A DNA stretch of 64,000 nt from Plumapathes pennacea (lineage: Eukaryota > Cnidaria > Anthozoa > Antipatharia > Myriopathidae). The stretch spans positions 3,476,501 to 3,540,500 of the forward strand of contig OZ038464.1 in the NCBI GenBank assembly GCA_964036295.1. The letters run 5' to 3'. The notes under the pieces are model-generated. The model worked only from the letters and a program-made list of their open reading frames with translations. It ran no database searches and was not told the origin of the DNA. Position numbers and translations under genes: made by a program. Position 1 is the first letter of the stretch. Each line of letters begins with the position of its first letter. This document shows positions 5,092-61,465 of this stretch, piece after piece.

Positions 5092-5775
5092 ATGGCCCTG
5101 TTTTACAACTTACTCGATAAAAGATGTTACCACGGATTGACTTTCATTGGAATTTCCATGTTTGTGATAACTGGAGCTTTCATTCTGATGATCATTCTTT
5201 ATGATCACGAAGAACCAGATACGTTTCACTGCTACATCACTGAAGAAAAGAAACCTGCGAATAACCTTCGCGATCGCTGCCGTGAGGAATACAACAAGCG
5301 GTACAACAAACTCCTTTCCTTCTACCACTTTGCCTTACTGGATTTTAGCCTTGTGGTGCTCGTATGTAAGGTGTACTCTTGGAACGTGCGACCGCGAATC
5401 GATCAACTGGATCAAGTAGAAAATGCAGACGAACCAAGCCCTTCGATTTATCAAGTGTTTACAGCATATGTCTTGCATTTGCAGATCAGATCTGTTCTGA
5501 TGACGGTGTTTCTGATTCTGCAGTGGACAGTGTATTATCCATCCGCATGTTTTAAAAAGGGAATTTTGACGAAAACTATGACGTACAGAGCTTTGACAAC
5601 ATCCTTCGAGTGCAGGTGTATGTGTGAACTTGTACTGTTTGGGGTAAATGCATTCTTCTTGGCAGTTTCTCTTTTTGAGCTTGCATACCTCTTCTACAAA
5701 GCCATAAACCAAACTGAAAATTTCACCACAGATTCATATTTCTGTGAAAATTATCTTAAAAAGATAAACATGTAG
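5092..5775 (+). CDS. Stand-alone four-transmembrane, channel-like protein (NLR-derived)
   Basis: Encodes 227 residues equivalent to the N-terminal domain of the large NLRs here. Hydrophobic segments lie at about 17-37, 78-98, 126-148 and 181-203. Loop 1 has C47 and C63, with the family pattern C-x15-C followed by EYNKRYN. Loop 2 has C153 and a Cys cluster at 174-178 (the paralogue has one). A conserved juxtamembrane motif (FTTDSYFCENYL) precedes the stop. Cytosolic termini and two Cys-bearing outer loops match connexin, innexin and LRRC8 topology, but no sequence identity to those families is claimed. The ATG at 5092 aligns with the family start. Downstream DNA is decayed NACHT linker, so this is a truncated NLR. 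Intactness may reflect recent duplication rather than selection. Confidence 0.7.
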   Translation: MALFYNLLDKRCYHGLTFIGISMFVITGAFILMIILYDHEEPDTFHCYITEEKKPANNLRDRCREEYNKRYNKLLSFYHFALLDFSLVVLVCKVYSWNVRPRIDQLDQVENADEPSPSIYQVFTAYVLHLQIRSVLMTVFLILQWTVYYPSACFKKGILTKTMTYRALTTSFECRCMCELVLFGVNAFFLAVSLFELAYLFYKAINQTENFTTDSYFCENYLKKINM

Positions 5776-6687: not shown

Positions 6688-7445
6688 ATGGTCGCGTTTT
6701 TCAACCTATCCGACCTTAAGAAAGCTTTTCCCAGAGAAGCTTGGAAATTGATTCTTTACACCATAATCCTACCTGGGGCTGGCATTTTGCTTCAGCTTTA
6801 TATCATTGGACGCAATGAGCCAGAAACGTTTCGCTGCTACGTCAATAGAGAAGAGAAAACTTCGGAGGACATTCGCAATCGCTGCTACAATGAATACAAC
6901 AGTCAGTACAACGGGAACTTTTCCTTGTTCCAGTTAGCCTCGCTGGAGTTTTTCCTCGTGCTGTTGGTATGTGTTGTGTACGCTCGGTACGTGAGACAGA
7001 GAGTTGATCAACTAGAGTGAATAATGAAGAAAATGCAGAAGAACCAAGCCCATTGAGGATTACAATGTTTACAGCATATGTCACCCATTTGCTGATCAGA
7101 TCATTTCTATTGGCGGTGTTTCTGTGGAAAGTTGTTCATCCAACAACGTTTCCAGAAGAGTTCCCTTGCTTTGGAAGCATGAATGTGACAAACAGAATCT
7201 TGACAACAACCTCAGAATACAGCTGCAAGAACCCTCAAGCATGGATAAAGGAAACCTGTGCAAGCTCGATGTCTTACGTATTTAAATGGTTCCTGGTAGA
7301 GTCTCTGTTCGAGCTCCTGTACATATACCGACTCTACATTACCCAACCTAGGGGTTTTACCGAAGATCGCAATTTCTACAGGGAATATTTGAGAACTGAA
7401 CTGGGATACCGAGTAAGACGTGACAAAAAGAAGTGCCGCTCTTAG
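6688..7445 (+). pseudogene. 4TM gene with one frameshift
   Basis: The first frame (ATG 6688, stop 7018-7020) covers TM1, loop 1 with its two cysteines (FRCY, NRCY) and TM2 to QRVDQLE. The second frame (from 7017) resumes with the family's acidic linker (NEENAEEPSP), TM3, loop 2 (FPCF, YSCKNP), TM4 and juxtamembrane motif. One indel at about 7015 separates two otherwise complete halves. Either this is a recent pseudogene or the indel is an assembly error; the rotted NACHT that follows favours pseudogene. Confidence 0.75.
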
Positions 7446-8130
7446 TCCACGAGAAACCACATTAAATCACCACAAGTAACACAGTAACTTGCACAACATT
7501 CCACTATCAAAGAAAACTATAAGAGTGAGTCTTTCGGCATAAATTGCACGCGTCGAGATCATCACCACACCCATTCTTTAAAAATTAACGAAGGACCGAT
7601 CGGACAAAATTTTTAAATTTGATAATGCAAACCAAGAGAAACACGAAACCCATTTTTTAGAAACAGAACAAAGAGATGAAATTCTCAACAGACGTGCAGT
7701 GCCTTATAAACGTACGTTTGACGAACCGATAAAACTATTTTCTCCAGGGAAGCACTTGAAGGGCATGACTGATGCAACACGTACATCTGGTTGACGGCCA
7801 AGAAGTGAGAAGTAAAAGCTGCTTATTCGTGAAAATCCTACTAGAATAGAATATATCCAAAACCACTGAAGCCGAAGGAGGCGAACACTAACAAACCGCT
7901 GTATGGCAACTTACCAAGTAATCTCAGGTCAAGGCAAGCAAAGTACAGTAGCCTAGCAGGCTGAACAAATCTCCAAACGAACCGAGAAAAGTGAAGAACC
8001 GAGCAAAACCAGAAAAGCCAAGTTATCCAAACAATCCGCGGATTGGGGAAGAGCTAAGCGAACCGAAGCAGCTGCAAAACAAACGGAGAGAAGCGAACAA
8101 ACAGACGAAGCCGCTAAACGATCTAAAACA
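7446..8130 (+). pseudogene. Decayed NACHT remnant with destroyed P-loop
   Basis: Aligns out of frame with the large NLRs: CACCACACCCAT, AACAGAACAAAGAGATGAAATTCTCAA (RDRIL region) and CTATTTTCTCCAGGGAAGCA. The Walker A region (7795-7835) has lost the glycines and gained a stop. The Gln/Glu/Thr/Lys-rich insertion follows (7880-8130). A sister relic lies at 16476-17460. Confidence 0.75.
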
Positions 8131-8194: not shown

Positions 8195-8395
8195 TAAGAT
8201 CAGTACAGGATTTCAACAACCTCCGATCACAGATGCATCTCTCAACCTGTGCTGTTCGGGGTAAATGCATTTTTTTTGTGTTTTTTGGGGATTTCTCTAG
8301 TTGAGTTTATGTACCTTCTCTACAAAAAATCCACAGCTGACCACCAGGATTTTTCCACAGATTGAAATTTTGGTTGAATTGACGGTTTCTGATTC
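8195..8395 (+). pseudogene. TM4 fragment of another 4TM copy
   Basis: ACAACCTCCGA, GGGGTAAATGCAT, GGGGATTTCTCTAGTTGAGTTTATGTACC and CCACAGCTGA match the TM4 end of the 19.3-kb gene. A T-rich run and indels break the frame. It joins the next fragment near 8385. Confidence 0.7.
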
Positions 8396-9069
8396 TGCAG
8401 TGGACAGTGTATTATCCTTCCGCATGCTTTAAAAAGGGAATTTTGACGAAAACTATGACGTACAGAGCTTTGACAACATCCTTCGACTACAGGTGCATAT
8501 ATGAACTTGTACTGTTTGGGGTAAATGCATTCTTCTTGGCAGTTTCTCTTTTTGAGCTTGTATACCTCTTCTACAAAGCCATAAATCAAGCTGAAAATTT
8601 CACCACAGATTCATATTTCTGTGAAAATTATCTTAAAAAGATAAACATGTAATTAAGATGCCGGCGAGCAGTATGTAACACAAAGAGGTTCCGTTCCTGG
8701 TTCGCGAGGAACCACAAGCACCATCAGTAAGAATAGTAAGAAGACGGCAAAAGATACAAATGTTTCATTGACCGAGAGAGAAAACTCCAAACTTTCAAGA
8801 AAGTCTCTAGAAGCAAAATGAACGCAACACTGATCCGAAGTTTCTCACCACACCCATAACGCTTTTAAAAAGTTATTAAAAATCAACCGGAGTAAATATT
8901 TAATTAAACGAAGGAGAGACGAAGCCCGCTTCTTAGAAACGGAAGAAGCAAATTTTTTAATCATGCTCTATGTATACTAATTTTCATCGATCCTCGTGTA
9001 AATATATCACAGCAGTCGGTGCTACTTCTGATGAAAATTAAGTTTTAGAGTAGCCTACCAGAACACATT
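8396..9069 (+). pseudogene. 3' half of a 4TM gene plus decayed linker
   Basis: Near-identical to 5518-6200: loop 2 (PSACFKKGIL), TM4 (VNAFFLAVSLFELVYLFY) and the FTTDSYFCENYL motif, stop at 8652, then the same rotted linker. The N-terminal half is absent and there is no promoter, so it is a duplicated exon fragment. Confidence 0.8.
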
Positions 9070-11558: not shown

Positions 11559-12242
11559 ATGGCCCTGTTTTACAACTTACTCGATAAAAGATGTTACCAC
11601 GGATTGACTTTCATTGGAATTTCCATGTTTGTGATAACTGGAGCTTTCATTCTGATGATCATTCTTTATGATCACGAAGAACCAGATACGTTTCACTGCT
11701 ACATCACTGAAGAAAAGAAACCTGCGAATAACCTTCGCGATCGCTGCCGTGAGGAATACAACAAGCGGTACAACAAACTCCTTTCCTTCTACCACTTTGC
11801 CTTACTGGATTTTAGCCTTGTGGTGCTCGTATGTAAGGTGTACTCTTGGAACGTGCGACCGCGAATCGATCAACTGGATCAAGGAGAAAATGCAGACGAA
11901 CCAAGCCCTTCGATGTATAAAGTGTTTACAGCATATGTCTTGCATTTGCAGATCAGATCTGTTCTGATGACGGTGTTTCTGATTCTGCAGTGGACAGTGC
12001 ATTATCCTTCCGCATGCTTTAAAAAGGGAATTTTGGCGGAAACTATGACGTACAGAGCTTTGACAACATCCTTCGACTACAGGTGCCTAAGTGAACTTGT
12101 ACTGTTTGGGGTAAATGCATTCTTCTTGGCAGTTTCTCTTTTTGAGCTTGTATACCTCTTCTACAAAGCCAAAAATCAAGCCGAAGGTTTCACCATAGAT
12201 TCATATTTTTGTCAAAATTATCTTAGCAGAGAAAACTTGTAG
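11559..12242 (+). CDS. Stand-alone four-transmembrane protein, paralogue B
   Basis: A 227-residue paralogue of the 5092 gene, identical over about the first 107 residues and then differing at scattered positions; the tail ends FCQNYLSRENL. TM positions and C47, C63, C153 and C176 are kept, and loop 2 reads FDYRCLSE without the extra cysteines of copy A. The start aligns with the family ATG and is preceded by the CRE-like pair. The stop is followed by decayed linker and then a tandem copy of this gene's own 3' half. As in paralogue A, a membrane protein with four helices is predicted; whether it works alone or as a partner of the NLRs is unknown. Confidence 0.7.
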   Translation: MALFYNLLDKRCYHGLTFIGISMFVITGAFILMIILYDHEEPDTFHCYITEEKKPANNLRDRCREEYNKRYNKLLSFYHFALLDFSLVVLVCKVYSWNVRPRIDQLDQGENADEPSPSMYKVFTAYVLHLQIRSVLMTVFLILQWTVHYPSACFKKGILAETMTYRALTTSFDYRCLSELVLFGVNAFFLAVSLFELVYLFYKAKNQAEGFTIDSYFCQNYLSRENL

Positions 12243-12443: not shown

Positions 12444-12900
12444 TGTATAAAGTGTTAACAGCATATGTCTTGCATTTGCAGATCAGATCTGTTCTGATGA
12501 CGGTGTTTCTGATTCTGTAGTGGACAGTGTATTATCCTTCCGCATGCTTTAAAAAGGGAATTTTGGCGGAAACTATGACGTACAGAGCTTTGACAACAAC
12601 CTTCGACTACAGGTGCATATATGAACTTGTACAGTTTGGGGTAAATGCATTCTTCTTGGCAGTTTCTCTTTTTGAGCTTGTATACCTCTTCTACAAAGCC
12701 AAAAATCAAGCCGAAGGTTTCACCATAGATTCATATTTTTGTCAAAATTATCTTAGCAGAGAAAACTTGTAGTTAACTAGCTGCCGGCGAGCAGTATGTA
12801 GCACAAAGAGGTATTATTCCTTGTCCACGAGAAACTACAAGCACCATCACTAACAGGGGCGGATTCAGGATAGCCACAAAAACCTGTACACAACTGGAAG
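12444..12900 (+). pseudogene. Tandem copy of the 4TM 3' half
   Basis: Near-identical repeat of 11912-12380, beginning at the sequence encoding YKVFTAYVLHL. A one-base change turns the loop Q codon into TAG (GATTCTGTAGTGGAC versus CTGCAGTGG), splitting the frame. The piece continues through TM4 to a stop at 12772 and repeats the following linker, including CAGGGGCGGATTCAGG. A direct-repeat duplication of about 0.5 kb. Confidence 0.8.
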
Positions 12901-13007
12901 AAGAATTCGAAAGTGAAACCGCAAGTATTTGTCAACAAATTATTCAACTTGAAACTCGGTCAAAAGAAGAAAGCGTAAATTTCTTTACGCACGTATTTAG
13001 TTTGGAT

Positions 13008-15569: not shown

Positions 15570-16110
15570 TGTGGAGGGGTCAATTTAGCCTGGTTGCATT
15601 GCCAAGGGAGGGGGTTGGGTTTGTGTTCCACCGGTCTTTCTCCTTATTGGTATAAGTGAAGTAAAAGTTGCCATAAACTCCGGCAACTGGTTGTCGCCAC
15701 AACTTTTGCCGTCATAGTTATTAGGATAACAGGCAGTTTCCCACTGCCAGCACAAGACTAACTATTCCTGAAGAAGCTAAAACACCAAGCAGCATTCTCC
15801 TCAGATACAATGTTTTTAAGTTCAATACAGCACTGATACGTGAGAAAGATTCAGAAATAAACTGTTTGATGTTTTCTGCATGTCGGCCTATGTGGCCGGG
15901 TCGAGGAATAGTGAAGAGTAAACTCTGCGTTGTGAACTGAAATTGTCAATTGACCAACACAAATCACACATTGTTTTTTGTTTGCAGACATTTTCAAGAA
16001 CGCCGTGTGCTTCTTGAAGGTGTTTTGAATTTGAATTTGAAGGTAAGTAACAAATGCGTTCATATAAGAGATATGTAGTTCTTTTTCCTTTATAATGGCA
16101 CGTGATAGCG
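15570..16110 (+). repeat. Dispersed repeat with an exon-like core, copy 1
   Basis: Closely matches 47188-47790. Both copies contain a 55-base segment (here 15988-16042) bordered by TTTGTTTGCAG and GTAAGTAAC, excellent acceptor and donor sites, and both continue to GCGCAAAACAG. Here it abuts a 4TM fragment directly. It may be a mobilised non-coding exon or part of an unknown element. Confidence 0.6.
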
Positions 16111-17460
16111 CAAAACAGTTTACAGCATATGTCACCCATTTGCTGATCAGATCATTTCTATTGGCGGTGTTTCTGTGGAAAGTTGTTCATCCAACAACGT
16201 TTCCAGAAGAGTTCCCTTGCTTTGGCAGCATGAATGTGGCAAACAGAATCTTGACAACAACCTCAGAATACAGCTGCAAGAACCCTCAAGTATGGATAAA
16301 GGAAACCTGTGCAAGCTCGATGTCTTATGTATTTAAATGGTTCTTGGCAAAATCTCTGGTTGAGCTCCTGTACATATACCGACTTTACATTACCCAACCT
16401 AGGGGTTTTACCAAAGATTGCAATTTCTGCAGGATATATCTGAGAAACCGAACTGGGATACCGAGTATGGCGTGACGAAAAGAAGCACCGTTCTTGGTCC
16501 ACGAGGAACCACAATCACCACAAGTAAAACAGTAATTTGCACAAACATTCAACAATCAAAAAGAAATGACGAAGTTTCGAGAGAGAGTCTTTCGGCGCAA
16601 ATTGTACGCACCACTGCTCGAGTTTATCACCACGCCATTCCTTTAAAAATTAATGAAGGATCGACCAGACGAAATTTTTACAAATTTAGTATACCAAAAT
16701 AAGAGAAAACACGAAGCCCATTTTTAGAAACAGAACAAAGAGGTGAAATTCTCAGCAGATAGTGCCCGGTACGTTTGACGAACCAATACAACTATTTCTT
16801 CAAGCAAGCACTTGAAGGACATGACTGATCCAACACGTAGATCTAGTTGTCGGCCAAGAAGTGATAAGTAAAAGCTGCTTATCCGTGAAAATCCTACTAG
16901 AATAAAATATATCCAAAACCAATGAAGCCGGAGGAGGCGAACAAACCGAACACTAACAAACCGCTGTATGGCAACTTTCCAAGTAACTCAGATCAGGGCA
17001 AACAAAGTACAGTTAGCCTAGCAGGCTGAACAAATCTACAAACGAACTGAGAAAAGTGAAGAACCGAGCAAAGTCAGAAAAGCCAAGTTATCCCAGCAAT
17101 CCGCAGATTGGGGAAGAACTTAAGCGAACCGAAACAGCTGCAAAACAAACGGAGAAAAGCGAACAAACAGACGAAGCCGCTAAACGAACTAAAATAAAAC
17201 AGGAGCCACAAAACCTGAACGTGACGACAGAGAAGCAGATAAGTCCTGAAACGTTTGGATTTTGATTTTTTTACAATGGTAGAGTTCTAAATTAATTCCA
17301 GTGAAATGCACCAGATTTCTGTCGAGGACCTGTTAAGAAGTTCTTCTTTCACAGTAAACCTCAGCGACGAACTGTAAAGTATAAAGCACGTATTAGGAAA
17401 TCCCCCAAAAATGTGATTCTGACATTCGATTTAAGACCTGTATCCATAAAAACTTTAAAG
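16111..17460 (+). pseudogene. NLR relic: 3' half of 4TM domain plus decayed NACHT
   Basis: An open stretch to 16475 encodes TM3 (FTAYVTHLLIRSFLLAVFLW), loop 2 (FPCF, YSCKNP), TM4 and the juxtamembrane motif, closely matching the 6.7-kb copy. Beyond it, frameshifted DNA retains the pre-NACHT region, a broken P-loop (about 16815-16900), the Glu/Gln/Thr/Lys-rich insertion (17056-17265 still open) and the DLLRSSSF stretch up to the Walker B region (about 17440). It lacks TM1, TM2 and a promoter. Confidence 0.8.
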
Positions 17461-19344: not shown

Positions 19345-19923
19345 ATGTTTCACTGGCTGGCTTTCATTGGAATTTGCTTCTTCTTCATAACTGGAGCTGG
19401 CATTTTGATTATCATGCTTTTTATCGGTGAGCCGAAAGAGGCAGGGACGTTTCAACGCTACAAGCAGTACAGCAAAAACGTTTCGTTGTACAAGTTTGCC
19501 TTCCTGGATCTTAGCCTCGTGCTGCTCGCAAGTAAGGTGTACTCTTGGTACGTGAGACCGCGAGTTGATGAACTGGATACTGGAAAAAATGAAGACGGAC
19601 CAAGCCCATTGAGGATTAAAATGTTTACCGCATATGTCTTGCATTTGCTGCGGACCAGATCCGTTCTGACGACAGTGTTTTTGCTTCTGCAGTGGACAGT
19701 TATTCATCCATTTACATGCATTAACATCGACATTTTGACGGAAACTGTAACGTACAGAACTTCAGCAACAACCTCCGACTACAGGTGCATCTGTCAACGA
19801 GTACTGTTTGGAGTAAACGCATTGTTTTTGGGGATTTCTCTGATTGAGTTTACATACCTCCTCTACAAAAAAGCCACAGCTGAACTTTTCAGATTGGGAT
19901 TTCTGCAAAACGTATATCTCTAA
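19345..19923 (+). CDS. 4TM protein lacking the loop-1 cysteines
   Basis: The start at 19345 (MFHWLAFIG) gives about 192 residues and aligns near the family N-terminus. An in-frame ATG at 19090 would add 85 residues that resemble nothing in the family and may be 5' leader. Four hydrophobic segments are present. Loop 1 is shortened by about 20 residues: TFQRYKQYSKN replaces the usual C-x15-C stretch, through a deletion between two CGCTAC-like sites. Loop 2 keeps THPFTC and YRCIC-type cysteines. The end (AELFRLGFLQNVYL) is a frameshifted juxtamembrane motif. Losing the loop-1 cysteines would abolish inter-loop disulfides, so this is probably a decaying copy even though the frame is open. Confidence 0.5.
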   Translation: MFHWLAFIGICFFFITGAGILIIMLFIGEPKEAGTFQRYKQYSKNVSLYKFAFLDLSLVLLASKVYSWYVRPRVDELDTGKNEDGPSPLRIKMFTAYVLHLLRTRSVLTTVFLLLQWTVIHPFTCINIDILTETVTYRTSATTSDYRCICQRVLFGVNALFLGISLIEFTYLLYKKATAELFRLGFLQNVYL

Positions 19924-21480: not shown

Positions 21481-21903
21481 ATGTGCAAGTTTTTCAAAGT
21501 ATGCGATCAGAAATATTTTCACATCTGCAGTGTGATTGGAAATCTGATCTTCTTCGCCACCGGAGCATTCATTTTCCCTACGCTTTGTATCATTGAACAC
21601 CAAGAACCTCAAACTTTCCTCTGCTGCACTACCGAAGAAAAGAAAATTTTGGATCACATTCGAGATCCCTGCTACAATGAATACGACAAGCAGTACAACG
21701 GGAACTATTCTTTACATCACTTTGCCTTCTGGAATTTTGCCCTCGTGCTGCTGGTAGATGTTGTTTACTTATGCCACGCGAGACAGCGAGTTGATCAATA
21801 TGATGACGAAGAAAATGCAGAAAGCCCAAGCGCATTGAAGTATAAAGTTCGTTCGCTGATCAGATCATCTTTGTTGCTCAACGGTTCAGAGATTTGGCAA
21901 TGA
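21481..21903 (+). pseudogene. 4TM gene truncated in TM3
   Basis: 140 residues: TM1 (about 19-38), loop 1 with LCC and DPCYNEYDKQYN, TM2 (about 80-98), then RQRVDQYDDEENAESPSALKYK. The frame enters the start of TM3 (RSLIRSSLL) and ends in unrelated sequence. With its own promoter box it could be transcribed and make a two-pass fragment, but the family fold cannot form. Confidence 0.7.
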
Positions 21904-22490: not shown

Positions 22491-25400
22491 ATGTCCCCGT
22501 GTTTTGACTTACTCGGAAAGAAATGTTTCCATAGATTGGCTTTGATTGGAATTCTCATCTTCGCCTCAGCTGGAACTGGCATTTTGAGTAAGCTTTTCAT
22601 CGATGAACCCAAAGAGCCAGAGACGTTTCGCTGCCATATCAATGAAAAAAAAGCAACTTCGAATGACATTCGCGGTCGCTGCTACAAGAAATACGACAAG
22701 CAGTACAACAAGAACTTGCCCTTGTTAGGCTTTGCCTTGCTGGATTTTCTCCTCGTGGTACTGGTATGTGTTGTGTATTCTCAGTTCGTGCGACTGCGAG
22801 TTGACGAATTAGATGATTTTTATAAAGAAAATGAAACAAGAAACGGCGCAAAACCACCACGAACTTCACTGAAGTGTAAAGTGTTTACCGCATATGTCGG
22901 GCATTTATTGATCAGATCTGTTCTGATGATAGTGTTTCTGGTTCTGCAGTGGACAGTTATTTATCCAATAACGTTTCCAGAAGAGTTTACTTGCTTTGCC
23001 AGAATTGACAACTCGACATTGACAGAAAATGTGACGAACAAAACTTCGACAACAACCTCGGAGTACAAATGCGACAACCCTAAAGCAAAGATAAAGACAA
23101 TTAGTGGAACTTTAATGTTTGCAGCGACTGCATTGTTCCTATGTTTTTCTCTCCTGGAGTTGGTATGCCTCAACTGCAAAGCCAACGCTTATTATACCGA
23201 AGATGAAAATTTCTGCAATAAGCATTTGCTTCGAAGATATCATAGAAAACCAAGCAGCTGCGATACCGAGTCAGGTGATAATATGAGATTTTTGGATATC
23301 GAGGAAACACCACAAGCCCCGCAAAGAACAGAACCAAGGCCGCCAATACATACAAACGTTCCTCTGACAGAGAGAATCAAGAAGTTTCAAGACATTCTTC
23401 TGGAGCAAATTGAACGCAACACTGAGTTTATCAACACACCCATTCCATCAAATGAAGGATCGAAGAAATGGAAACTGGACGAAACCTTTGTAAATTTGGT
23501 CATCCAAACTGGAAGAAAAGACGAAGCTCGTTATTTTAAAACAGAAGACAGAGATAGAATTCTCAATCAATATGCAGTGCCCGATAAATGTACATTCGAA
23601 GAGCCAATGAAAATATTTTCTCCGAGCAAAGATTCAGAGGACATTACTGATTCACCACGTACAGTTCTGGCAGTCGGACGTGCAGGGATAGGGAAAAGCT
23701 CTTTATCCTTGAAAATCCTACGAGAATGGGCCAAAATGAAAACTAAACAAGGAGGACAAGTCACCGAACAGCGTGAGAGCGTTGGACAAGACAAAAAAGA
23801 CACGAAAAAGAACGATGAAGTCGAACAAGACACGAAAGAAACCTCCAAACACATTACCAGGCAAACTGAACAAGAGGTCGGGCAAACCAGTGATAAAGAA
23901 GAGCAAGCTGGAGAACCTGAACAAGCAACGGAAAAAAATAAACCAACGGGACAAACCGCTGAAAAAGTTGAGCAAAACAGACAGAACAACGAAACACGAA
24001 CTGGAGGGGCAGGACGAGTCAAGCGAACTGGAAGTGACGACAGAACAACCGAAGAAACGGTAAAACGCTTTGATCTTGCTTTCCTACTGGAGTTCCGAAA
24101 GCTAAATAAAATGCGCCAAATTTCTCTCAAGGACCTGTTGAGACGTTCGCCTTTCTCAGTAAACCTCAGCGACGAAGAAATACTTCAACACGTTTTAGAA
24201 AATCCTCAAAACGTTCTTCTCATCTTCGATGGTTTGGACGAGGCAAAGAATATCGGCCAAGGTATAAAAGAAGAAGAGGCATTCCATAACGAGGATGACT
24301 TAATGATGCCCGTTGGTGCCCTGTTTGCCAAGCTTGTAAGAGGAAGGCTGTTGTCAGGGGCAACAGTTCTCACCACAACAAGATCTACCGCATTATCCGA
24401 TTATGCGGTTTCTGATTTTTACTTCAAGAAAGTAAACTCAGGAGAGTTGCGACGTGTAGAAATTCTTGGTTTTACTGAAGATAAAGTCGAAGCCTTTGTC
24501 AAGAGATTCACCTCTTCTGATGGGGAAATGCAACGCCACATCTGGGACCACATCAAAGCAAACGCAAATCTCCTGTCTCTGTGCTACATCCCTGTTAACT
24601 GTTTCATAGTGTGCTACACTTTGCAGAGTTTCTTCGAAAGAAATCAAGACACAAGTGATGGTCGTTCCCAGCTGCCGCCTAAACTGCCGATAACACTCAC
24701 AGAGATCTACAACAGAGCTCTCAAGTGTTTCATATTGAACCATCACTCCTTGTACCAAACAGACAAACCAAGTCGTAAAGAGTTTAAGGACAACAAGTTC
24801 AGAGAACCTGTGGAAAAAACACTCAGAAAATATGGCATGTTAGCCAAACAAGGATTAAAGGAGAAGAAGTTAATATTTGAAGAGACAGACATCAGGGAGT
24901 CTGCTCAGATCAGCGACGAGGAACTGCAAGAATTGGTGGCCAGCGGTTTGCTCCATCAGCTGCCAAATCTGGACGATGAATCTGAAGAGCAGTACTGTTT
25001 TATTCATTTGACATTTCAAGAATTTTTGGCTGCAAGAGTCATTGCTAACGAAAGCGGAACAAAGCTTCAAACCTTTTCAAAGTCTGTTATGAAGGATTTA
25101 AATATGGGGATGATCCTTCGATTTGTGGCTGGACTGCTGAGAGATCGCGGAGACAGCAAGTGCATTGACAACTTGTTAGCGCCTTTCATTAGAAAGAGGA
25201 TCGTCACATGTATGCCATGTACTGTGCAAACTGGCTTTGCTTTATCTAGAATAGACGGGTTTTTATTACTATTGCACTGTATGTTCGAGCTCCAAGATGA
25301 AGAGAGAGCAAAACAAGTTTCCAAGCAGCAAGTGGAAGATAGACTATATCATCTCAGAGGAATTAGCGACTCGGACTGCGGGGCTCTCGTATTCTTCTTC

Positions 25401-26207
25401 AAGTATTTGAATAACACTCACCTTTCGCTTTTAGACAATTTCATCGGGTCTCGTGGCTGTGCAGAGCTGGCAGAACTGGTGCACTATGGTAAACTTGGAT
25501 GTTTAGATATTAAACACAGCAATGTTGGAGATGAAGGAGTGAAGCACCTGAAGGAAGCACTGGAGAGTGAAAACTGTCAGCTGACAAAGTTAAAACTTTC
25601 TGCAAATCAGCTCACTGATGAAGGTGTGCAGTGTCTTAAGGATGCGCTAGTGAAGCCCACGTGTAAGTTAACGCACTTATCTTTAGGACGTAATAAAATC
25701 ACTGCCCTGGGAGCAAAGCACCTGAAGGGAGCACTGGAGAGTGATAACTGTCAACTGACACGTTTGTGTCTAAGTGGAAATCAACTCACTGATGAAGCTA
25801 TGAAGTATTTGAAGGATGCACTAGTGAAGCCCACGTGTAAGCTTAAGTACTTATCTGTAGGATCCAATAGAATCACTGCTGAGGGAGCAATGTACCTGAA
25901 GGAAGCACTAGAGAATGATAACTGTCAGCTGATAAAGTTAAAACTTGGTGGCAATCAGCTCACTGATAAAGGCATGCAGTATCTGAAGGACGCTCTAGTG
26001 AAGCCCACGTGTAAGCTTGAGGAATTATCTGTAGAAAGTAATGGAATCACCGCCCTGGGAGTAAAGCACCTGAAGGAAGCACTGGAGAGTGAGAACTGTC
26101 AACTGATAAAGTTAAAACTTGATATAAATCAGCTCACTGATGAAGGCATGCAGTATCTGAACGACGCGCTAATGAATCCCACGTGCAAGCTTGAGGAGTT
26201 ATCTTAG
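22491..26207 (+). CDS. 4TM-NACHT-LRR receptor (membrane-anchored NLR)
   Basis: 1238 residues in one exon. The ATG at 22491 (MSPCFDLLGKKCFH) aligns with METCFKLLGKKCFH of the 48.7-kb gene; ATGs at 22476 and 22488 are alternatives. Order: TM1 16-37; loop 1 with C48 and C64; TM2 79-99; cytosolic loop; TM3 134-157; loop 2 with C168, C194 and N-glycosylation sequons at 174, 180 and 183; TM4 204-227; pre-NACHT (FVNLVIQTGRK, about 333); Walker A GRAGIGKS 396-403; Glu/Gln/Thr/Lys-rich insertion about 420-526; Walker B LIFDGLDE 577-584; TTTRS about 628-632; winged-helix FIHLTFQEFLAA 837-848; LRRs from about 988. The stop comes from a one-base deletion in an LRR (TCT-TAGGA against TCTGTAGGA in sister repeats), so the cap is lost. 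Predicted role: innate sensing at a membrane. Confidence 0.85.
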   Translation: MSPCFDLLGKKCFHRLALIGILIFASAGTGILSKLFIDEPKEPETFRCHINEKKATSNDIRGRCYKKYDKQYNKNLPLLGFALLDFLLVVLVCVVYSQFVRLRVDELDDFYKENETRNGAKPPRTSLKCKVFTAYVGHLLIRSVLMIVFLVLQWTVIYPITFPEEFTCFARIDNSTLTENVTNKTSTTTSEYKCDNPKAKIKTISGTLMFAATALFLCFSLLELVCLNCKANAYYTEDENFCNKHLLRRYHRKPSSCDTESGDNMRFLDIEETPQAPQRTEPRPPIHTNVPLTERIKKFQDILLEQIERNTEFINTPIPSNEGSKKWKLDETFVNLVIQTGRKDEARYFKTEDRDRILNQYAVPDKCTFEEPMKIFSPSKDSEDITDSPRTVLAVGRAGIGKSSLSLKILREWAKMKTKQGGQVTEQRESVGQDKKDTKKNDEVEQDTKETSKHITRQTEQEVGQTSDKEEQAGEPEQATEKNKPTGQTAEKVEQNRQNNETRTGGAGRVKRTGSDDRTTEETVKRFDLAFLLEFRKLNKMRQISLKDLLRRSPFSVNLSDEEILQHVLENPQNVLLIFDGLDEAKNIGQGIKEEEAFHNEDDLMMPVGALFAKLVRGRLLSGATVLTTTRSTALSDYAVSDFYFKKVNSGELRRVEILGFTEDKVEAFVKRFTSSDGEMQRHIWDHIKANANLLSLCYIPVNCFIVCYTLQSFFERNQDTSDGRSQLPPKLPITLTEIYNRALKCFILNHHSLYQTDKPSRKEFKDNKFREPVEKTLRKYGMLAKQGLKEKKLIFEETDIRESAQISDEELQELVASGLLHQLPNLDDESEEQYCFIHLTFQEFLAARVIANESGTKLQTFSKSVMKDLNMGMILRFVAGLLRDRGDSKCIDNLLAPFIRKRIVTCMPCTVQTGFALSRIDGFLLLLHCMFELQDEERAKQVSKQQVEDRLYHLRGISDSDCGALVFFFKYLNNTHLSLLDNFIGSRGCAELAELVHYGKLGCLDIKHSNVGDEGVKHLKEALESENCQLTKLKLSANQLTDEGVQCLKDALVKPTCKLTHLSLGRNKITALGAKHLKGALESDNCQLTRLCLSGNQLTDEAMKYLKDALVKPTCKLKYLSVGSNRITAEGAMYLKEALENDNCQLIKLKLGGNQLTDKGMQYLKDALVKPTCKLEELSVESNGITALGVKHLKEALESENCQLIKLKLDINQLTDEGMQYLNDALMNPTCKLEELS

Positions 26208-27479: not shown

Positions 27480-29260
27480 CTCTTAACCTTTCTCTGCTGG
27501 TCCTGGTTTGCGTACTGTACTCTCAGTATGTTCGACAGCGCGTTGATGAAGTGGATAGCGGTGCCGTACCACACCAAAGCACGCTGCATTGTAAAGTGTT
27601 CACAGCGTATATCGTTCATTAGATCGCAAGAGTTATTATGCTTCTACTTGTAGTATTTCTGACCTTGCAATGGGGTGCTTTATACCCATTCCTGCTTTAA
27701 AACATAAGTAATTCAACAGCAGCTAGTTTAAACCAGTACCAAAACGTTCTCCGGCGGAGATGCACTGTTTACAGTAAACTTAATGCTCCTGTGTTTTTTG
27801 TATGTTCGAGGTAATATATCTGCTAAGAAGAGTCAATGACTAGACTTTCGTTGAAGGTCAAATAATGCCTTTGTAAATTGATTCATTCAAACTGAAAAGA
27901 AAGTGGAAGACTTTTGTGGTGAAGAAAGAGATGGGCACTTCTGTCGTAAACGAGGCAAAAGAAATATTAGAGCGAGGAGCAAAGAGAAAGACAACCATCA
28001 CCAAACTTAAGAGTGGAACTTACGCGCGAAGGACCAATGGACCACGAAAGGGAACCACTGATTGAAGAAGCCGTGCACACCAACTAACAACTTAGGAAGA
28101 TTTTCAAACAAGCTTGAAAAGCCAAATTCTTCGTCTCACTGAAAACATCAAGCCACTCATTCCCGGAAAATTCAATCAAATTGGATGACGCCTTTGTAAA
28201 TTTATTCAAACTTAAAATGTGGAAGACGTTTGTGGTGTAGAAAGAAATGCAGCACTTCTGTCGCATGCACAGCCGAACAAAGGTTCTAAACGAGGCAAAA
28301 GAAATATTAGAGCCTAACAAGGATGCGCAAAATCCGCGCACAATTCTAGCAGTTGACGAGTAGGAATTGGACAACCTTGTTTGCAACAAAGCTGAATTTA
28401 GGTACATGAACATCGGCGACCCTGACTAGAGCTCCCGTCTTCTTCGCGAAGAATGTTAATGGAACAAGCCTAGACCAAACACGGAATCACATTGGGCCTC
28501 GTGGCTGTGCAGAGTTGACACAACTGGCCAAAGATGGTAACCTCAGTAAGTTAGATGTCGGTGATAACAATGTTGGGAACGAAGGGACAAGGCACTTGAA
28601 GAATGCATTGAAAAGTGAACAGTGTCAACTAACAGAGCTACGCCTTGACATAAACCAGCTCGACGACGAAGGTGGGAAACATCTGAAGATCGCGCTTGTA
28701 AAGCCCAGCAAACTTAAAAACCTCTCTTTAGCATCTAATAGAAAAACTCCTGTTTTTGCAAAGCACCTGATAGAAGCACTGGAGAACGAGAACTGTCAGC
28801 TAGCAGGGCTAACCCTTGATGGAAATCAGCTCACTGATAAAGGTCTGAAGTATCTTAAGTACGTGCTTGTGAAGCCGACATGTAAGCTAAAGCAGCTATC
28901 AGTGAAATCTACTAACGTAACTGCTCTGGGAGCAAAGCACTTGAAGGAAGTATTGGAGAACTGTCAACTAGTCAAGTTGGAACTTGGTGGAAATCAGCTT
29001 AAAGATGAAGAGGTGCGGCATTTGAAGGATGCACTTGTGAAGACCACATGCAAACTTGAGATAATATGTATGAATTCTAATGGTATAACTGCCGAGGGAG
29101 CAAAGCACCAGAAGGAAGCACTGGAGAGTGAGAACTGTCGGCTGAAGCCTACATGTAAGCTTGATCTCTTATCTGTGGAATCTAATGGACTAACGGACGT
29201 TGCAGCAAATTATCTAAAAGAAGCATTGGAGTGAGGACTGTCAACTGAAAAGTTTAGGGC
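27480..29260 (+). pseudogene. Degenerate 4TM-NACHT-LRR pseudogene
   Basis: Begins in TM2 (LSLLVLVCVLYSQYVRQRVDEVD, 27485-27560), then a broken TM3 (VVFLTLQW near 27648). Pre-NACHT pieces appear twice (CCTTTGTAAATTGATTCATTCAAACTG at 27868; DAFVNLF near 28187), and no NACHT core was found. From 28495 an open LRR segment encodes about eight repeats (GPRGCAELTQLAK, then LRR cores) to 29234. One repeat has lost several residues, and the end is a frameshift in EALESENCQL. No start codon context remains. Confidence 0.8.
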
Positions 29261-31306: not shown

Positions 31307-31659
31307 ACACATAGTGAAACTCCCTGAGCAAACCACCACCTTACCCAACTCCCCTCAGTCAACTATTAGTGAAACCTCTCGTAAGTGACCAAAGTTTCGA
31401 TTGGTTTTGACGTCATGTAAGCAACCACCCTGTGTGCCGAAAGGAGATTTTCATAGGAAGTAGTTTGTGTACTATTATTTTAGTCGTTAGTCGTCTAACG
31501 ACCTCTATTTCGACTCGGCCAAAAACGGTACGACACAAACGGAGCTGAATTCCATGCAAGGTGTCGCCCTTGTCATTAGCACTGAAGATGGTCACTGCCA
31601 GAGATTTGGTTGCGTCCTCAGTGGTTCTTTAAGTTGGGAGACATTATGCTATATTTTTG

Positions 31660-48650: not shown

Positions 48651-51600
48651 ATGGAGACATGCTTCAAGTTACTCGGTAAAAAGTGTTTCCATGGACTAGC
48701 ATTTACTGCAATTTCCATCTTCACTTTATCGGGAGTTGGCATTCTAAGTAGTACGGTTATTTACCAAGCGAATGAGCAAGAAAAGTTTCATTGCTATACC
48801 AAGGACAAAGAGAAGGCGTCGGATTACCTTCATGATCGCTGCTTTAAGGAATACGACAAGCAGTACAGTAAGAACTTTCCCTTGTACGGCTTTGCCTCGC
48901 TGAACTTTCTTCTCGTTTTGCTGGTATGTGTTGTGTACTGTCAGTGCGTGAAAAAACGAGTTGATCAGTTGGATCATAATGTAGGAGACGCACGACGAAC
49001 CTCATTCGTGTTTAAAGCATATGTCACCCAGTTGCTGATCAGATCCATTCTGATGACGGTGTTTCTGGTCCTGCAGTGGACAGTCATCTATCCAATAACA
49101 TTTCCCGCAGCGTTCACCTGTTCTGACAGCATCAACAACTCCACAGAAAACAGAAACTCAACAACAAACTCAGACTACAGCTGTAACAATACTCTAGCAA
49201 CAAAAGAAACAATCTCCGGAATTTTTCTGTTTGCAATAACTGCATTTTTCTTGGGGATTTCTCTAGTGGAGTTGGTGTACCTCTACTGTCGAGCAAAAAA
49301 TGCTACTGAGGATTTTACCGCAGATTGGAACTTCTGCAAAAAGTATCTCAGCAGTCAGAAAAGAAGTCGGGTAGCCGATGAAGGTAATGGAACGCTTTTA
49401 GAGGATTCACAACAAGAATCGGAAAGCCCTGAACCGAGGCCGCCAATAGATACAAACGTCCCACTGGCAGAGGGAATCAAGAGGTTTCAAGGTAGTCTTT
49501 TGGAGCAAATTGAACGCAACACTGAGTTTATCAACACGCCCTTTCCATCAAATGAAGGATCGAAGAAATGGAAACTGGACGAAATCTTTGTAAATTTGGT
49601 CATCCAAACTGGAAGAAAAGATGAAGCTCGTTATTTTAAAACAGAAAACAGAGATAGAATTCTCAACAGATATGCAGTGCCCGATAAATGTACATTCGAA
49701 GAGCCAATGAAAATATTTTCTCCGAGCAAAGATCCAGAGGACATTACTGATTCACCACGTACGGTTCTGGCAGTCGGACGTGCAGGGATAGGGAAAAGCT
49801 GTTTATCTTTGAAAATCCTACGAAACTGGGCTAAAACAAAAAGTGAGCAAGGAGGACAAGCCACTGAACAAGCCGTTAGCCAAGGCACCGGGCAAGTTGA
49901 ACAAACCGAACAAGCCACGACAGAAAACGATGAACACGTTACCAGGCAAATTGAACGTTTGGACTTTGCTTTCCTATTGGAATTCCGGAAGCTGAATAAA
50001 AAGAGAAAAATTTCTCTCAAGGAGCTGTTGAGAAGTTCGCCTTTTTCAGTAAACCTCGGCGACGGAGTACTTCAGTACGTTTTAGAAAATCCCAAAAAGG
50101 TTTTTCTGATCTTCGATGGTTTGGACGAGGCAAAGAATATTGCCCAAGGTATAAAAGAAGAAGAGCAATTCGATAACAATAATGACGTGATAATGCCTGC
50201 TGGTGCACTGTTTGCCAAGCTTGTAAAAGGAAAGCTGTTGTCAGGGGCAACCGTTCTCGCTACAACAAGATCTACTGCATTATCCGATGATGTGGTTTCT
50301 AATTTTTACTTCAAGGAAGTAAACTCAAAACAGTTGCGACTTATAGAAATTCTTGGTTTCACGGAAGATAAAGTCGAAGCCTTTGTAAACAGATTCGCCT
50401 CTTCCGATGGGGAAATGCAAAGCCGCATCTGGAATCACATCAAAGCAAACGCAAATCTGCTGTCTCTCTGCTACATCCCTGTCAATTGTTTCATAGTATG
50501 CTACACTTTGCAGAGTTTCTTCGAAAGAAGTCAAGACACAAGTGATGGTAGTTCCCAGCCGCCGTCTAAACTACCGATAACACTCACAGAGATCTACAAA
50601 AGAGCCCTCAAGCGTTTTATATTGAACCATCACTCCTCGTACCAAACAGACAAACCAAGCCGTGAAGAGTTCAAGGACGACAAGTTCAGAGAACCTGTGG
50701 AAGAAACACTCAGAAAACTTGGCATGTTAGCTAAACAGGGATTAAAGGAGAAGAAGTTAATATTTGAAAAGACAGACATCAAAGATTCTGCGAAGTTCAG
50801 CAATGAGGAGTTACGAGAAATGGTGGCCAGCGGTTTGCTCCGCCAGCTGCCAAATCTGGACGATGAATCTGAAGAACATTACTGTTTTTTACATTTGACA
50901 TTTCAGGAATTTTTGGCAGCAAGAGTCATTTCTAGCGGAAGCCAAAGAGAGCTTCAACGTTTTTCTGAATCTGTTCTAGAGGATCAAAACATGGAGATGG
51001 TTCTTCGATTTGTGGCTGGACTGCTGAAAGATCGCGGGGACAGCAAGTGCGCTGACAAGTTATTATCGCCTTTCACAAGAAATAGGATCGTCACATGTAT
51101 CCCATGTGTTACACGTACTGTGCGAGATGACCTCATTCATTCCAAGAAATTGCTATTACTACTGCACTGTTTGTTTGAGCTCCAGGACGAAGAGATAGCA
51201 AAACAACTTTCTAAGAAGACAAAGGAACTTAGAGATGATAGTTGTTATACATTCAATAAAATTAGCGACTCAGACTGTGGGGCTCTCGTCTTCTTCTTCA
51301 AGCATTTGGAAAATTCTGACCTTCACCTCGAAAACAGTTTTATCGGGCCTCGTGGTTGTGCAGAACTGGCTGAACTGGTTCGGGATGGTAAACTCAGGAG
51401 TTTAAATATTAAAAACAACAGTGTTGGAGCTGAAGGAGTGAAGCACCTGAAGGAAGCACTGGAAAGTGAGAACTGTCAGCTGACAAAGTTAAACCTTGAT
51501 AACAATCAACTCGAAGATAATGGCGTGCTGTATCTAAAGGACGCGCTAGCGCATCCCACGTGTAAGCTTGAGGATTTATCTGTAAGATACAATAGCATCA

Positions 51601-52637
51601 CTGCCGTGGGAGCACATCATCTGAAGGAAGCACTGGAGAGTGGGAACGGTCAGCTGATAAAGTTAAACCTTGATGACAATCAGCTCAAAGATGAAGGCAT
51701 GCAGTGTCTAAATGACGCGCTAGTAAAGCCCGCGTGTAAGCTTGAGGAGTTATCTGTAGGTCGGAATGGAATCACTGCCATGGGAGCAAAGTACCTGAAG
51801 GAAGCGGCACTGAAGAGTGAGAACTGTAAGCTGATAAAATTAAACCTTAATAGAAATCAGCTCAAAGATGATGGCGTGCAGTATCTAAAGGACGCGCTAG
51901 TGAAGCCCGCGTGTAAGCTTCGTGACTTGTCCTTAGGATGGAATAAAATCACTGCTGAGGGAGCAAAGTACCTGAAGGAAGCACTGGAGAGTGAGAATTG
52001 TCAACTGATAAAGTTAAATCTTAATGGAAATCAGCTCAAAGATGAAGGCGTGCAGTATCTAAAGGACGCGCCAGTGAAGCGCATGTGTAAGCTTGAGGAA
52101 TTATCTGTAAGATGGAATGGAATCACTGACGAGGGAGCAAAGCACCTGAAGGAAGTACTGGAGTGTGAAAACTGTCAGCTGATAAAGTTAAACCTCGATG
52201 ACAATCAGCTCACTAATGAAGGCGTGCAGTGTCTGAAGGACGCGCTAGTGAAGCCAGCGTGTAAGCTTCGTGACTTGTCCTTAGGATGGAATAAAATCAC
52301 TGCTGAGGGAGCAAAGTACCTGAAGGAAGCACTGGAGAGTATGAATTGTCAACTGATAAAGTTAAATCTTGATGGAAATCAGCTCAAAGATGAAGGCGTG
52401 CAGTATCTAAAGGATGCGCTAGTGAAGCCCGCGTGTAAGCTTGAGGAGTTATCTGTAGGTCGGAATGGAATCACTGACAAGGGAGCAAAGCACCTGAAGG
52501 AAGCATTGAAGAGTAAGAACTGTCAGCTGATAAAATTAAACCTTAATAGAAATCAGCTCACTAATGAAGGCCTGCAGTGTCTAAAGGACGCGCAAGTGAA
52601 GCCCACGTGTAAGCTTCGTGACTTGTCTGTAGGATAG
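48651..52637 (+). CDS. 4TM-NACHT-LRR receptor (membrane-anchored NLR), second copy
   Basis: 1328 residues, one exon. TM1 about 16-36; loop 1 with C48 and C64 at the same positions as the 22.5-kb paralogue; TM2 80-99; TM3 124-147; loop 2 with C157, C178 and NST/NNT sequons; TM4 188-212; juxtamembrane FTADWNFCKKYL; RPPIDTNVPL; pre-NACHT FVNLVIQTGRK; Walker A GRAGIGKS 376-383; a short Glu/Gln/Thr insertion about 400-436 (the paralogue has ~107 residues there); Walker B LIFDGLDE 486-493; winged helix LHLTFQEFLAA about 747-757; some 15 LRRs from residue 903 as 57-residue pairs on a 171-base DNA period. The stop at 52635 replaces a Trp codon (GGATAG against GGATGG in sister repeats), and LRR sequence continues beyond it. 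Probably a membrane innate-immune sensor; possibly a recent pseudogene. Confidence 0.85.
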   Translation: METCFKLLGKKCFHGLAFTAISIFTLSGVGILSSTVIYQANEQEKFHCYTKDKEKASDYLHDRCFKEYDKQYSKNFPLYGFASLNFLLVLLVCVVYCQCVKKRVDQLDHNVGDARRTSFVFKAYVTQLLIRSILMTVFLVLQWTVIYPITFPAAFTCSDSINNSTENRNSTTNSDYSCNNTLATKETISGIFLFAITAFFLGISLVELVYLYCRAKNATEDFTADWNFCKKYLSSQKRSRVADEGNGTLLEDSQQESESPEPRPPIDTNVPLAEGIKRFQGSLLEQIERNTEFINTPFPSNEGSKKWKLDEIFVNLVIQTGRKDEARYFKTENRDRILNRYAVPDKCTFEEPMKIFSPSKDPEDITDSPRTVLAVGRAGIGKSCLSLKILRNWAKTKSEQGGQATEQAVSQGTGQVEQTEQATTENDEHVTRQIERLDFAFLLEFRKLNKKRKISLKELLRSSPFSVNLGDGVLQYVLENPKKVFLIFDGLDEAKNIAQGIKEEEQFDNNNDVIMPAGALFAKLVKGKLLSGATVLATTRSTALSDDVVSNFYFKEVNSKQLRLIEILGFTEDKVEAFVNRFASSDGEMQSRIWNHIKANANLLSLCYIPVNCFIVCYTLQSFFERSQDTSDGSSQPPSKLPITLTEIYKRALKRFILNHHSSYQTDKPSREEFKDDKFREPVEETLRKLGMLAKQGLKEKKLIFEKTDIKDSAKFSNEELREMVASGLLRQLPNLDDESEEHYCFLHLTFQEFLAARVISSGSQRELQRFSESVLEDQNMEMVLRFVAGLLKDRGDSKCADKLLSPFTRNRIVTCIPCVTRTVRDDLIHSKKLLLLLHCLFELQDEEIAKQLSKKTKELRDDSCYTFNKISDSDCGALVFFFKHLENSDLHLENSFIGPRGCAELAELVRDGKLRSLNIKNNSVGAEGVKHLKEALESENCQLTKLNLDNNQLEDNGVLYLKDALAHPTCKLEDLSVRYNSITAVGAHHLKEALESGNGQLIKLNLDDNQLKDEGMQCLNDALVKPACKLEELSVGRNGITAMGAKYLKEAALKSENCKLIKLNLNRNQLKDDGVQYLKDALVKPACKLRDLSLGWNKITAEGAKYLKEALESENCQLIKLNLNGNQLKDEGVQYLKDAPVKRMCKLEELSVRWNGITDEGAKHLKEVLECENCQLIKLNLDDNQLTNEGVQCLKDALVKPACKLRDLSLGWNKITAEGAKYLKEALESMNCQLIKLNLDGNQLKDEGVQYLKDALVKPACKLEELSVGRNGITDKGAKHLKEALKSKNCQLIKLNLNRNQLTNEGLQCLKDAQVKPTCKLRDLSVG

Positions 52638-61460: not shown

Positions 61461-61465
61461 TTATA

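Follow-up and report, generated by a model that had tools for sequence, protein, structure and literature searches.

A connexin-like four-transmembrane domain fused to NACHT and LRRs in Plumapathes pennacea suggests an immune receptor that might itself open a membrane pore

Two intact genes and their partial copies

The window analyzed here is a 64,000-nucleotide stretch of the Plumapathes pennacea contig OZ038464.1 (assembly GCA_964036295.1, positions 3,476,501 to 3,540,500). It holds two intact genes of the same architecture, copy 1 and copy 2, in which a four-transmembrane (4TM) head precedes NACHT and leucine-rich repeats (LRRs):

22491..26207, + strand: copy 1, intact single-frame gene (4TM putatively connexin-related domain, linker, NACHT, winged helix (WH), HD2, LRR)
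22491..23195, + strand: copy 1 4TM domain, putatively connexin-related (residues 1-235; hydropathy, cysteines, sequons)
23196..23645, + strand: copy 1 linker and region ahead of NACHT (residues 236-385, approximately; Pfam search found no effector domain)
23676..23699, + strand: copy 1 Walker A, GRAGIGKS (motif; aligned to the NLRP P-loop)
24063..24518, + strand: copy 1 best Pfam NACHT stretch (P0001 530-681)
24213..24242, + strand: copy 1 Walker B, VLLIFDGLDE (inside the Pfam NACHT match)
24816..25001, + strand: copy 1 winged helix, NOD2_WH (Pfam 21.5 bits, slightly below the cut-off of 23.1)
25005..25313, + strand: copy 1 HD2, NLRC4_HD2 (Pfam)
25542..26204, + strand: copy 1 ribonuclease-inhibitor-type LRRs in 174-bp DNA units (Pfam LRR_6, alignment)
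48651..52637, + strand: copy 2, second intact gene of the same architecture, 1,328 aa (fully open frame, Pfam)
48651..49355, + strand: copy 2 4TM domain, the copy nearest connexins (Pfam Connexin, PDB phmmer)

The copy 1 frame is open from 22404 to the TAG at 26205-26207. Its first in-frame ATG, at 22476, gives 1,243 aa (P0001), and an alternative start at 22491, which matches the copy 2 start in the alignment, gives 1,238 aa; the two are equally plausible, and residues of copy 1 are numbered here from 22491. Four transmembrane segments followed by Walker A and B, a winged helix and LRRs, as proposed in the initial annotation, do lie in one open frame, and copy 2 repeats the order; the 'same exon' of that annotation is used here for an uninterrupted frame only. 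With Pfam, NACHT scored 82 bits in copy 1 and 74.5 bits in copy 2, NLRC4_HD2 (36.2 bits in copy 1) and LRR_6 exceeded their cut-offs in both and NOD2_WH passed its cut-off in copy 2 (25.6 bits) but not in copy 1. By their NACHT, WH/HD2 and LRR regions, both predicted proteins qualify as NLRs (NACHT-LRR). Matches of PGM_PMM_II and similar Pfam families on the LRRs were taken as repeat artefacts. Both frames end within an LRR unit, so the real C-termini may differ.

A known effector domain is common, though not obligatory, in invertebrate NLRs. Pfam searches up to E = 1 found no CARD, PYD, DEATH, DED, BIR or TIR domain in either intact copy. A death-fold domain hidden in the linker was rejected for lack of a Pfam match; judged by eye, the linker looks like the stretch ahead of NACHT in NLRP-type receptors.

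Exactly four regions of the 1,238-aa copy 1 product exceed a Kyte-Doolittle mean of 1.6 over 19 residues (about 19-37, 78-104, 139-157 and 201-226), in line with the four hydrophobic segments first noticed. The outer-loop cysteines were likewise found where they had been placed (C48 and C64 in loop 1, C168 and C194 in loop 2), as were sequons in loop 2, three in number (174, 180 and 183); another lies at 114 in the TM2-TM3 loop. Each outer loop carries two cysteines in both intact copies. The N- and C-termini of the head may be cytosolic, an orientation suggested by the loop 2 sequons and the cytosolic NACHT.

Identity between copy 1 and copy 2 is 56-57% across the 4TM part, with TM3 and the loop cysteines conserved, and 68% over the body. 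Purifying selection acts on the 4TM part (NG86 dN/dS = 0.39, bootstrap 0.26-0.57). Because a second, fully open copy keeps the identical part order, the one-frame 4TM-NACHT-LRR architecture is confirmed as more than chance. The idea of two separate genes, one for the 4TM part and one for NACHT, was rejected in view of the single frame, found twice, and of fusion remnants (4TM plus linker/NACHT) detected by tblastn at two more loci; the reversed-window control gave none.

Around the intact genes lie at least nine partial 4TM copies, two of them with linker/NACHT remnants downstream:

5092..5757, + strand: 4TM copy, isolated or decayed, with an open frame of 226 aa that lacks the distal part of loop 2
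6718..7391, + strand: decayed 4TM copy in two frames, then a linker-NACHT remnant
7495..7785, + strand: remnant of the linker and N-terminal part of NACHT, downstream of the 6718 copy (tblastn E 1.3e-10, 2.0e-11)
8213..8371, + strand: 4TM fragment (loop 2-TM4) adjoining the one at 8386 and perhaps a copy of its own (E 4.6e-5)
8386..8634, + strand: 4TM fragment (TM3-TM4)
11559..12230, + strand: 4TM copy, isolated or decayed, with almost the same sequence as 5092-5757
12449..12760, + strand: 4TM fragment with one stop
16098..16523, + strand: fragment of the second half of the 4TM domain
16410..17413, + strand: linker/NACHT remnants in three frames, overlapping the end of the 16098 fragment and downstream of it
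19348..19881, + strand: 4TM copy without most of loop 1
21481..21876, + strand: fragment of the first half of the 4TM domain, closely upstream of copy 1
27518..27742, + strand: 4TM fragment (TM2-TM3 region) with stops

Such debris could mean that the cluster is a decaying tandem array without function and the 4TM-NACHT joint a relic or an assembly artefact: of the 11 4TM loci counted in the window, 9 are broken or incomplete, and both intact frames stop inside a repeat. Against this, frames of 1,238 and 1,328 codons stay open at an overall dN/dS of 0.46, and anemone transcripts have the same kind of layout, as far as the excerpted source goes (PMC5094078); we regard decay or artefact as highly improbable. 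By tblastn, no relative of the 4TM domain was found in viral contigs (17 pattern matches) or prokaryotic contigs (7). Rfam gave only a tRNA-like match (13007-13076), and an NCBIfam scan gave one match far below its cut-off (E 0.036) and nothing useful.

Relationship of the 4TM domain to connexins

The connexin signal was strongest in copy 2. Pfam Connexin (PF00029) matched its 4TM domain with E 1.2e-5, and all 13 matches that phmmer retrieved from PDB with this domain were connexins (best E 3.5e-4). The PF00029 scores of 25.6, 22.5 and 16.5 bits all lie below the gathering score of 31.3, only 2 of the 11 4TM copies match this family at all, and the copy 1 domain alone had no PDB match by phmmer up to E 10. 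A five-copy profile returned connexins in six of six PDB matches (best E 0.009). A four-row profile reached them only at E 3.2-4.4, and GPR156 chains made up three of nine matches of an 11-row profile, which counts against the connexin reading. PDB also holds pannexins, innexins and LRRC8; among these families, the sequence searches returned connexins only.

Profile alignment with hhalign was performed against connexin, PANX1 and LRRC8A sequences entered by hand. The two intact copies reached a probability of 91.3% against five connexins and 89.9% against Cx43 alone (61.1% and 53.8% for five copies). PANX1 gave 0.54% and 0.48% for two and five copies, LRRC8A showed no appreciable similarity (4.2% and 0.26%) and three reversed controls gave 0.1-0.3%. 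In each of four tests, one of them restricted to TM1-loop 1, none of 100 shuffles reached the observed score. Mere shared hydrophobicity was rejected, as shuffles within 10-column blocks, which roughly preserve the hydropathy profile, never attained that score in three sets of 100. Only TM3-loop 2-TM4 shows the stronger similarity; for the first half of the head the probability was 6.4% (two copies) and 2.0% (four copies).

Searching the 770 window ORFs of at least 40 aa with the connexin HMM ranked copy 2 first (E 2.1e-6). Ranks 2 and 3 were 4TM pieces (E 0.096 and 0.39), the best reversed decoy had E 0.34 and copy 1 was absent up to E 5. With Cx43 as a phmmer query, seven 4TM pieces took ranks 1-7, copy 1 having E 0.14. 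Innexin was absent among the seven Pfam families matched by any of the 11 members. From these comparisons, the head appears homologous to connexins beyond chance and closer to them than to other 4TM channels, and a connexin-related membrane part is the most likely reading. The initial annotation had likened the head to connexins, innexins, pannexins and LRRC8 collectively; the 4TM part does appear to belong to this large-pore class, and within it the sequence evidence, mainly that of copy 2, favors connexins.

Structure prediction was less decisive. The AF2 models had a pLDDT of 53.6 (model 1, copy 2 as query, the poorer) and 61.0 (model 2, copy 1 as query, with elements in the order TM1-strand-helix-TM2-TM3-strand-TM4), so that no confident four-helix model was obtained; nor did Foldseek bring up a clearly different known fold, the outcome that the initial annotation had named as refuting. 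For the first model, connexins, LRRC8, pannexins and innexins made up 46 of the 50 matches listed, of 175. For the second, the 50 matches listed, of 136, included 12 connexins, 28 pannexins, 1 innexin and 7 designed four-helix proteins. No match of either model had E <= 1e-3. The excess of pannexins over connexins for the better model would fit a 4TM domain that belongs to the large-pore superfamily in general, on the pannexin/innexin/LRRC8 side and no nearer to connexins, or that is convergent, and the best window match of PANX1 by phmmer is copy 1 (E 0.022). Such an origin is improbable given that PDB sequence searches and Pfam return, among these families, only connexins and that the hhalign values for PANX1 and LRRC8A are low.

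A candidate receptor with a built-in pore

We infer the topology, disulfides, glycosylation, oligomerization, pore and gating of the encoded protein as follows. It would be a membrane NLR with its N- and C-termini in the cytosol and its two outer loops tied by two disulfides, equivalent to the two outer pairs of connexins (C1-C3' and C3-C1'); both loops lack the middle pair, C2-C2'. LRRs would detect a danger signal in the cytosol or close to the membrane, NACHT would bind nucleotide and cluster the subunits, and clustering would by itself open or assemble the pore, giving ion flux or ATP release as the immune output without a CARD, DEATH or TIR adaptor. Because loop 2 is long and has at least three sequons, docking is unlikely and a hemichannel, probably non-docking, likelier than a cell-cell junction; the missing cysteine pair, together with the sequons, deepens the doubt about docking. 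Known animal NACHT rings have about 10-11 subunits, a mismatch with the connexin hexamer that counts against the scheme. Overall, we are evenly divided over a membrane-anchored NLR that has a four-helix, connexin-related channel subunit as its effector and a pore opened by NACHT clustering.

The missing middle pair, with a segment before TM1 shorter than that of connexins, is also what might be expected of a connexin-derived 4TM domain without channel function, which would tether an otherwise normal NLR to the plasma membrane or a vacuole membrane (for example, that of the symbiosome) and leave signaling to other means. The pore is, after all, something we only infer, and the excerpted 2016 report on transmembrane NLRs of anthozoans proposes that they may be membrane-bound and names no channel (PMC5094078). 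A plain anchor, however, would need neither TM3 nor the loop cysteines, which are kept between the intact copies, and the purifying selection on the 4TM part also speaks against it. We consider a mere anchor rather unlikely, although it carries real weight.

The architecture fits either direction of signaling, and a membrane- or ion-sensing channel-like domain could control NACHT assembly, with the NLR part as output. In LRRC8 a 4TM pore is joined to LRRs in the cytosol, and dS between copy 1 and copy 2 is 0.72 in the head versus 0.30 in the body (0 of 2,000 permutations), as if the heads were kept different. The head dN/dS is nevertheless not raised, and neither intact copy has an output domain that Pfam recognizes; a sensory head is therefore doubtful in our view. 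If the NACHT-opened pore is real, this would be an animal NLR with its own channel, sensing and execution being combined in one polypeptide.

Comparison with known systems

The initial annotation knew of no characterized animal NLR built in this way, but novelty of the architecture is not supported: transmembrane-bearing anthozoan NLRs (TMD-NLRs) were in print by 2016, in a paper that we take to be that of van der Burg et al. In its excerpted text, anemone transcripts encode NACHT and LRR with three to five N-terminal TM segments, a layout shared by the genes described here, and the TMD-NLRs of anemones and Acropora digitifera form one NACHT clade (PMC5094078). The same text leaves the TM part unnamed (PMC5094078); here, compared by description, the corresponding part resembles connexins. 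The bare architecture is not new; the connexin likeness of the TM part is newly found here and, if true, would give that part of the TMD-NLRs an identity and a testable function.

Two surveys, one using BLAST and one HMMER plus BLAST, place connexins in chordates only, and one of them considers connexins a de novo chordate invention; the first left aside one unconfirmed sea-urchin transcriptome sequence (PMC8769644, PMC6391747; both as excerpted). We tentatively suggest, as possible though not yet probable, that a connexin-family domain was present in early animals and was kept in anthozoans as a built-in NLR effector, a NACHT-opened hemichannel, so that connexins would not have arisen de novo in chordates. 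The family would then predate the cnidarian-bilaterian split and gain a testable outgroup for its origin.

Connexins have three cysteines per extracellular loop. The window heads share with them four putative TM segments, the TM3-loop 2-TM4 similarity, cysteines placed like C1 and C3 in the loops and, by alignment, the loop 1 motif E(Q/P)xxFxC. They differ in having two cysteines per loop, a Pfam score below the cut-off, a longer loop 2 with sequons and a fusion to NACHT-LRR, and in probably not being chordate proteins. LRRC8 volume-regulated anion channels, which appear among the Foldseek matches, likewise place a 4TM part of the large-pore class ahead of LRRs, but they lack NACHT, reach only 0.3-4% by hhalign and contrast with the ribonuclease-inhibitor-like LRRs found here. 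Pannexins and innexins fall, by Foldseek, in the predicted fold class of the head. The excerpted source describes pannexins as non-docking with outer-loop sequons (PMC8769644), as the head here may be, although PANX1 gives about 0.5% by hhalign against it.

If the proposed pore exists, it has parallels in plants and fungi. In the CNL resistosomes of plants and the HeLo-type NLR systems of fungi, NLR activation leads to direct permeation of the membrane by a soluble pore-forming part, which inserts upon activation. Here, by contrast, the pore part would reside in the membrane permanently as a multi-pass domain, so that the receptor, if the reading is true, would be the animal equivalent of the plant resistosome.

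Gene copies and remnants across the window

The frame at 22404–26207 (+) is uninterrupted and encodes 1243 amino acids from the ATG at 22476 or 1238 from the ATG at 22491, the latter being the start of our residue numbering for this gene (copy 1). The layout given for 22491–26207 in the initial annotation proved correct. Exactly four hydrophobic regions occur in the whole protein (near residues 19–37, 78–104, 139–157 and 201–226). Cysteines 48/64 and 168/194 fall in the two predicted outer loops, the second of which also has sequons at 174, 180 and 183. This four-transmembrane (4TM) domain is continued in frame by NACHT, HD2, a borderline winged helix and LRRs of the ribonuclease-inhibitor type. 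A second intact gene, copy 2 (48651–52637, +), has 1328 open codons and the same part order. Both NACHT domains carry a low-complexity Q/E/K/T-rich insert after the Walker A helix and ahead of the following strand (23736–24062 in copy 1 and about 49836–49960 in copy 2), which is ~70 residues longer in copy 1. In both genes the frame is closed by a TAG inside an LRR unit, at almost the same point of the repeat (26180–26207 and 52600–52637); past the copy 2 stop, LRR-like sequence runs on in frame to 52745.

Searching the window with tblastn gave eleven loci with 4TM sequence, every one of them on the + strand; two are the intact genes and the other nine are incomplete or disrupted. A possible twelfth, separate piece lies at 8213–8371. 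Two of the nine incomplete or disrupted copies are accompanied by linker/NACHT remnants, and a reversed-window control for such remnants returned zero matches.

Linker/NACHT remnants in the window
7495–7785, + strand, linker/NACHT remnant downstream of 4TM remnant 6718–7391
16410–17413, + strand, linker/NACHT remnant with 4TM remnant 16098–16523
9258–9329, further weak linker/NACHT piece (E = 0.028)

Because the remnants occur at two further loci, the 4TM–NACHT fusion must be older than part of the cluster's duplication. A segmental duplication with 6467-base spacing (3978–4277/10445–10744, 99% identity; 5446–5745/11913–12212, 93%; 300-base samples) explains why the isolated 4TM frames at 5092–5757 and 11559–12230 (+) are nearly identical. 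Also present are a NACHT–LRR copy with broken frames and no detectable 4TM head (56744–58264) and additional fragments of this NLR family, with LRR and winged-helix sequence (3–1248 and 28410–29234). Elsewhere lie a reverse transcriptase ORF (31491–33026; RVT_1, E = 1.3e-29), probably of a non-LTR retrotransposon, a tRNA-like match just over the Rfam cut-off (13007–13076; 31.3 bits versus 29) and an open frame of 144 amino acids with zero Pfam matches up to E = 0.01 (61332–61766).

Sequence and predicted structure of the membrane domain

Pfam Connexin matched the 4TM domain of copy 2 with E = 1.2e-5 and 25.6 bits, below the 31.3 cut-off, and was matched by 2 of the 11 aligned 4TM copies. Searched alone against PDB sequences, the copy 2 domain returned only connexins up to E = 10 (13 of 13; best Cx43, E = 3.5e-4), and the copy 1 domain returned zero matches. 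All matches were likewise connexins for a five-copy profile (six of six, best E = 0.009) and a four-row profile (four of four, yet with E of 3.2–4.4); an 11-row profile including fragments gave six connexins and three GPR156 among nine. Using hhalign, the two intact copies reached 91.3% probability against five human connexins over 85 columns (TM3–loop 2–TM4), 89.9% against Cx43 alone, 4.2% against LRRC8A and 0.54% against PANX1; the corresponding values for five copies were 61.1%, 53.8%, 0.26% and 0.48%. Reversed controls (n = 3) gave 0.1–0.3%, and in each of four shuffle tests 0 of 100 shuffles attained the observed score. In one of the four, confined to TM1–loop 1, the observed score was 20.7 versus 19.1 for the best shuffle; for this part hhalign gave only 6.4% (2.0% for four copies), in a register that aligns the initial cysteine of the loop with the initial one of connexins.

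In a blind scan of 770 window ORFs, a connexin HMM ranked copy 2 first (E = 2.1e-6), followed by two other 4TM pieces (E = 0.096 and 0.39) comparable to the best reversed decoy (0.34); copy 1 was absent from the matches up to E = 5. When Cx43 was searched over the window ORFs by phmmer, ranks 1–7 were all 4TM pieces; E was 5.4e-6 for copy 2 and 0.14 for copy 1, which ranked sixth. The best match of PANX1 in the window was copy 1 (E = 0.022), which counts against a purely connexin reading. Most of the support for the connexin assignment in these comparisons comes from copy 2 and from the domain's second half.

The channel-like fold proposed in the initial annotation was borne out in part by monomer prediction and fold search: matches were mostly to connexins, LRRC8 and pannexins, but the AF2 models, built from window sequences only, were weak (pLDDT 53.6 and pTM 0.39 for the first; 61.0 and 0.49 for the second), and Foldseek against the PDB gave nothing with E up to 1e-3. 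The second model places TM1, a strand, a loop helix, TM2, TM3, a strand and TM4 in that order. Among the best 50 of 175 matches to the first model were 34 connexins, 10 LRRC8, 2 pannexins and 4 others; the best 50 of 136 to the second comprised 28 pannexins, 12 connexins, 1 innexin, 7 designed four-helix proteins and 2 others, with Cx36 first (E = 0.044, probability 0.99). The models support a large-pore fold class without selecting a family within it.

Constraint and divergence between the intact copies

Comparison of copies 1 and 2 gives the 4TM part a dN/dS of 0.39 (bootstrap 0.26–0.57); the values are 0.47 for the linker, 0.49 for NACHT–WH–HD2, 0.50 for the LRRs and 0.46 overall. By point estimate, protein-level constraint on the membrane part is at least as strong as on the rest of the protein. 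Over the 4TM part dS is 0.72, compared with 0.30 for residues 290 and beyond, a difference equaled in 0 of 2000 permutations. In 60-codon bins, dS is 0.57–1.20 to residue 300, falls sharply near there and is 0.12–0.50 thereafter, except for a single bin, located at the low-complexity insert, that reaches 0.68. The NACHT–LRR bodies have probably been homogenized by gene conversion or recombination, with differing membrane heads retained.

Putative mechanism and relation to known systems

LRR sensing could lead to NACHT clustering and thereby open or assemble a putative pore. Known NACHT rings have about 10–11 subunits versus six in connexins, a mismatch that favors either the gating of channels already assembled or a ring of unusual type. 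If NACHT is cytosolic, both termini would lie inside and the loops, with the loop 2 sequons, outside. Loop glycosylation is said to block docking in pannexins, and some innexins with such sites are described as still forming gap junctions (PMC8769644). Given the loop 2 sequons and the pannexin precedent, a hemichannel would be likelier than a gap junction.

A 2016 anemone study describes three to five N-terminal TM segments in 8 of 35 complete or partial NLRs, places 15 TMD-NLRs from anemone and Acropora digitifera in one clade and credits an earlier report of TMD-NLRs in Nematostella and Acropora (PMC5094078). TM domains are also mentioned for sponge NLRs (PMC12909245). Connexins are given as chordate only in one survey, bar one unconfirmed sea-urchin transcript (PMC8769644), and likewise in a second (PMC6391747). 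In a literature search covering few subscription papers and no bioRxiv preprints, connexin, cnidaria and NACHT never appeared together in one paper, and among the papers listed connexin-like domains were never linked to NLRs.

Connexin loops are joined by the disulfides C1–C3', C2–C2' and C3–C1'. The intact copies have two cysteines per loop, aligned with connexin C1 and C3, and in both copies the middle cysteine is missing from both loops. With a shared fold, the two cysteines that form one disulfide would be expected to disappear together. The middle cysteine is, however, a defining feature of connexins; given its absence and the sub-threshold Pfam score, we name the 4TM domain connexin-related, on sequence grounds, rather than classing it as a connexin.
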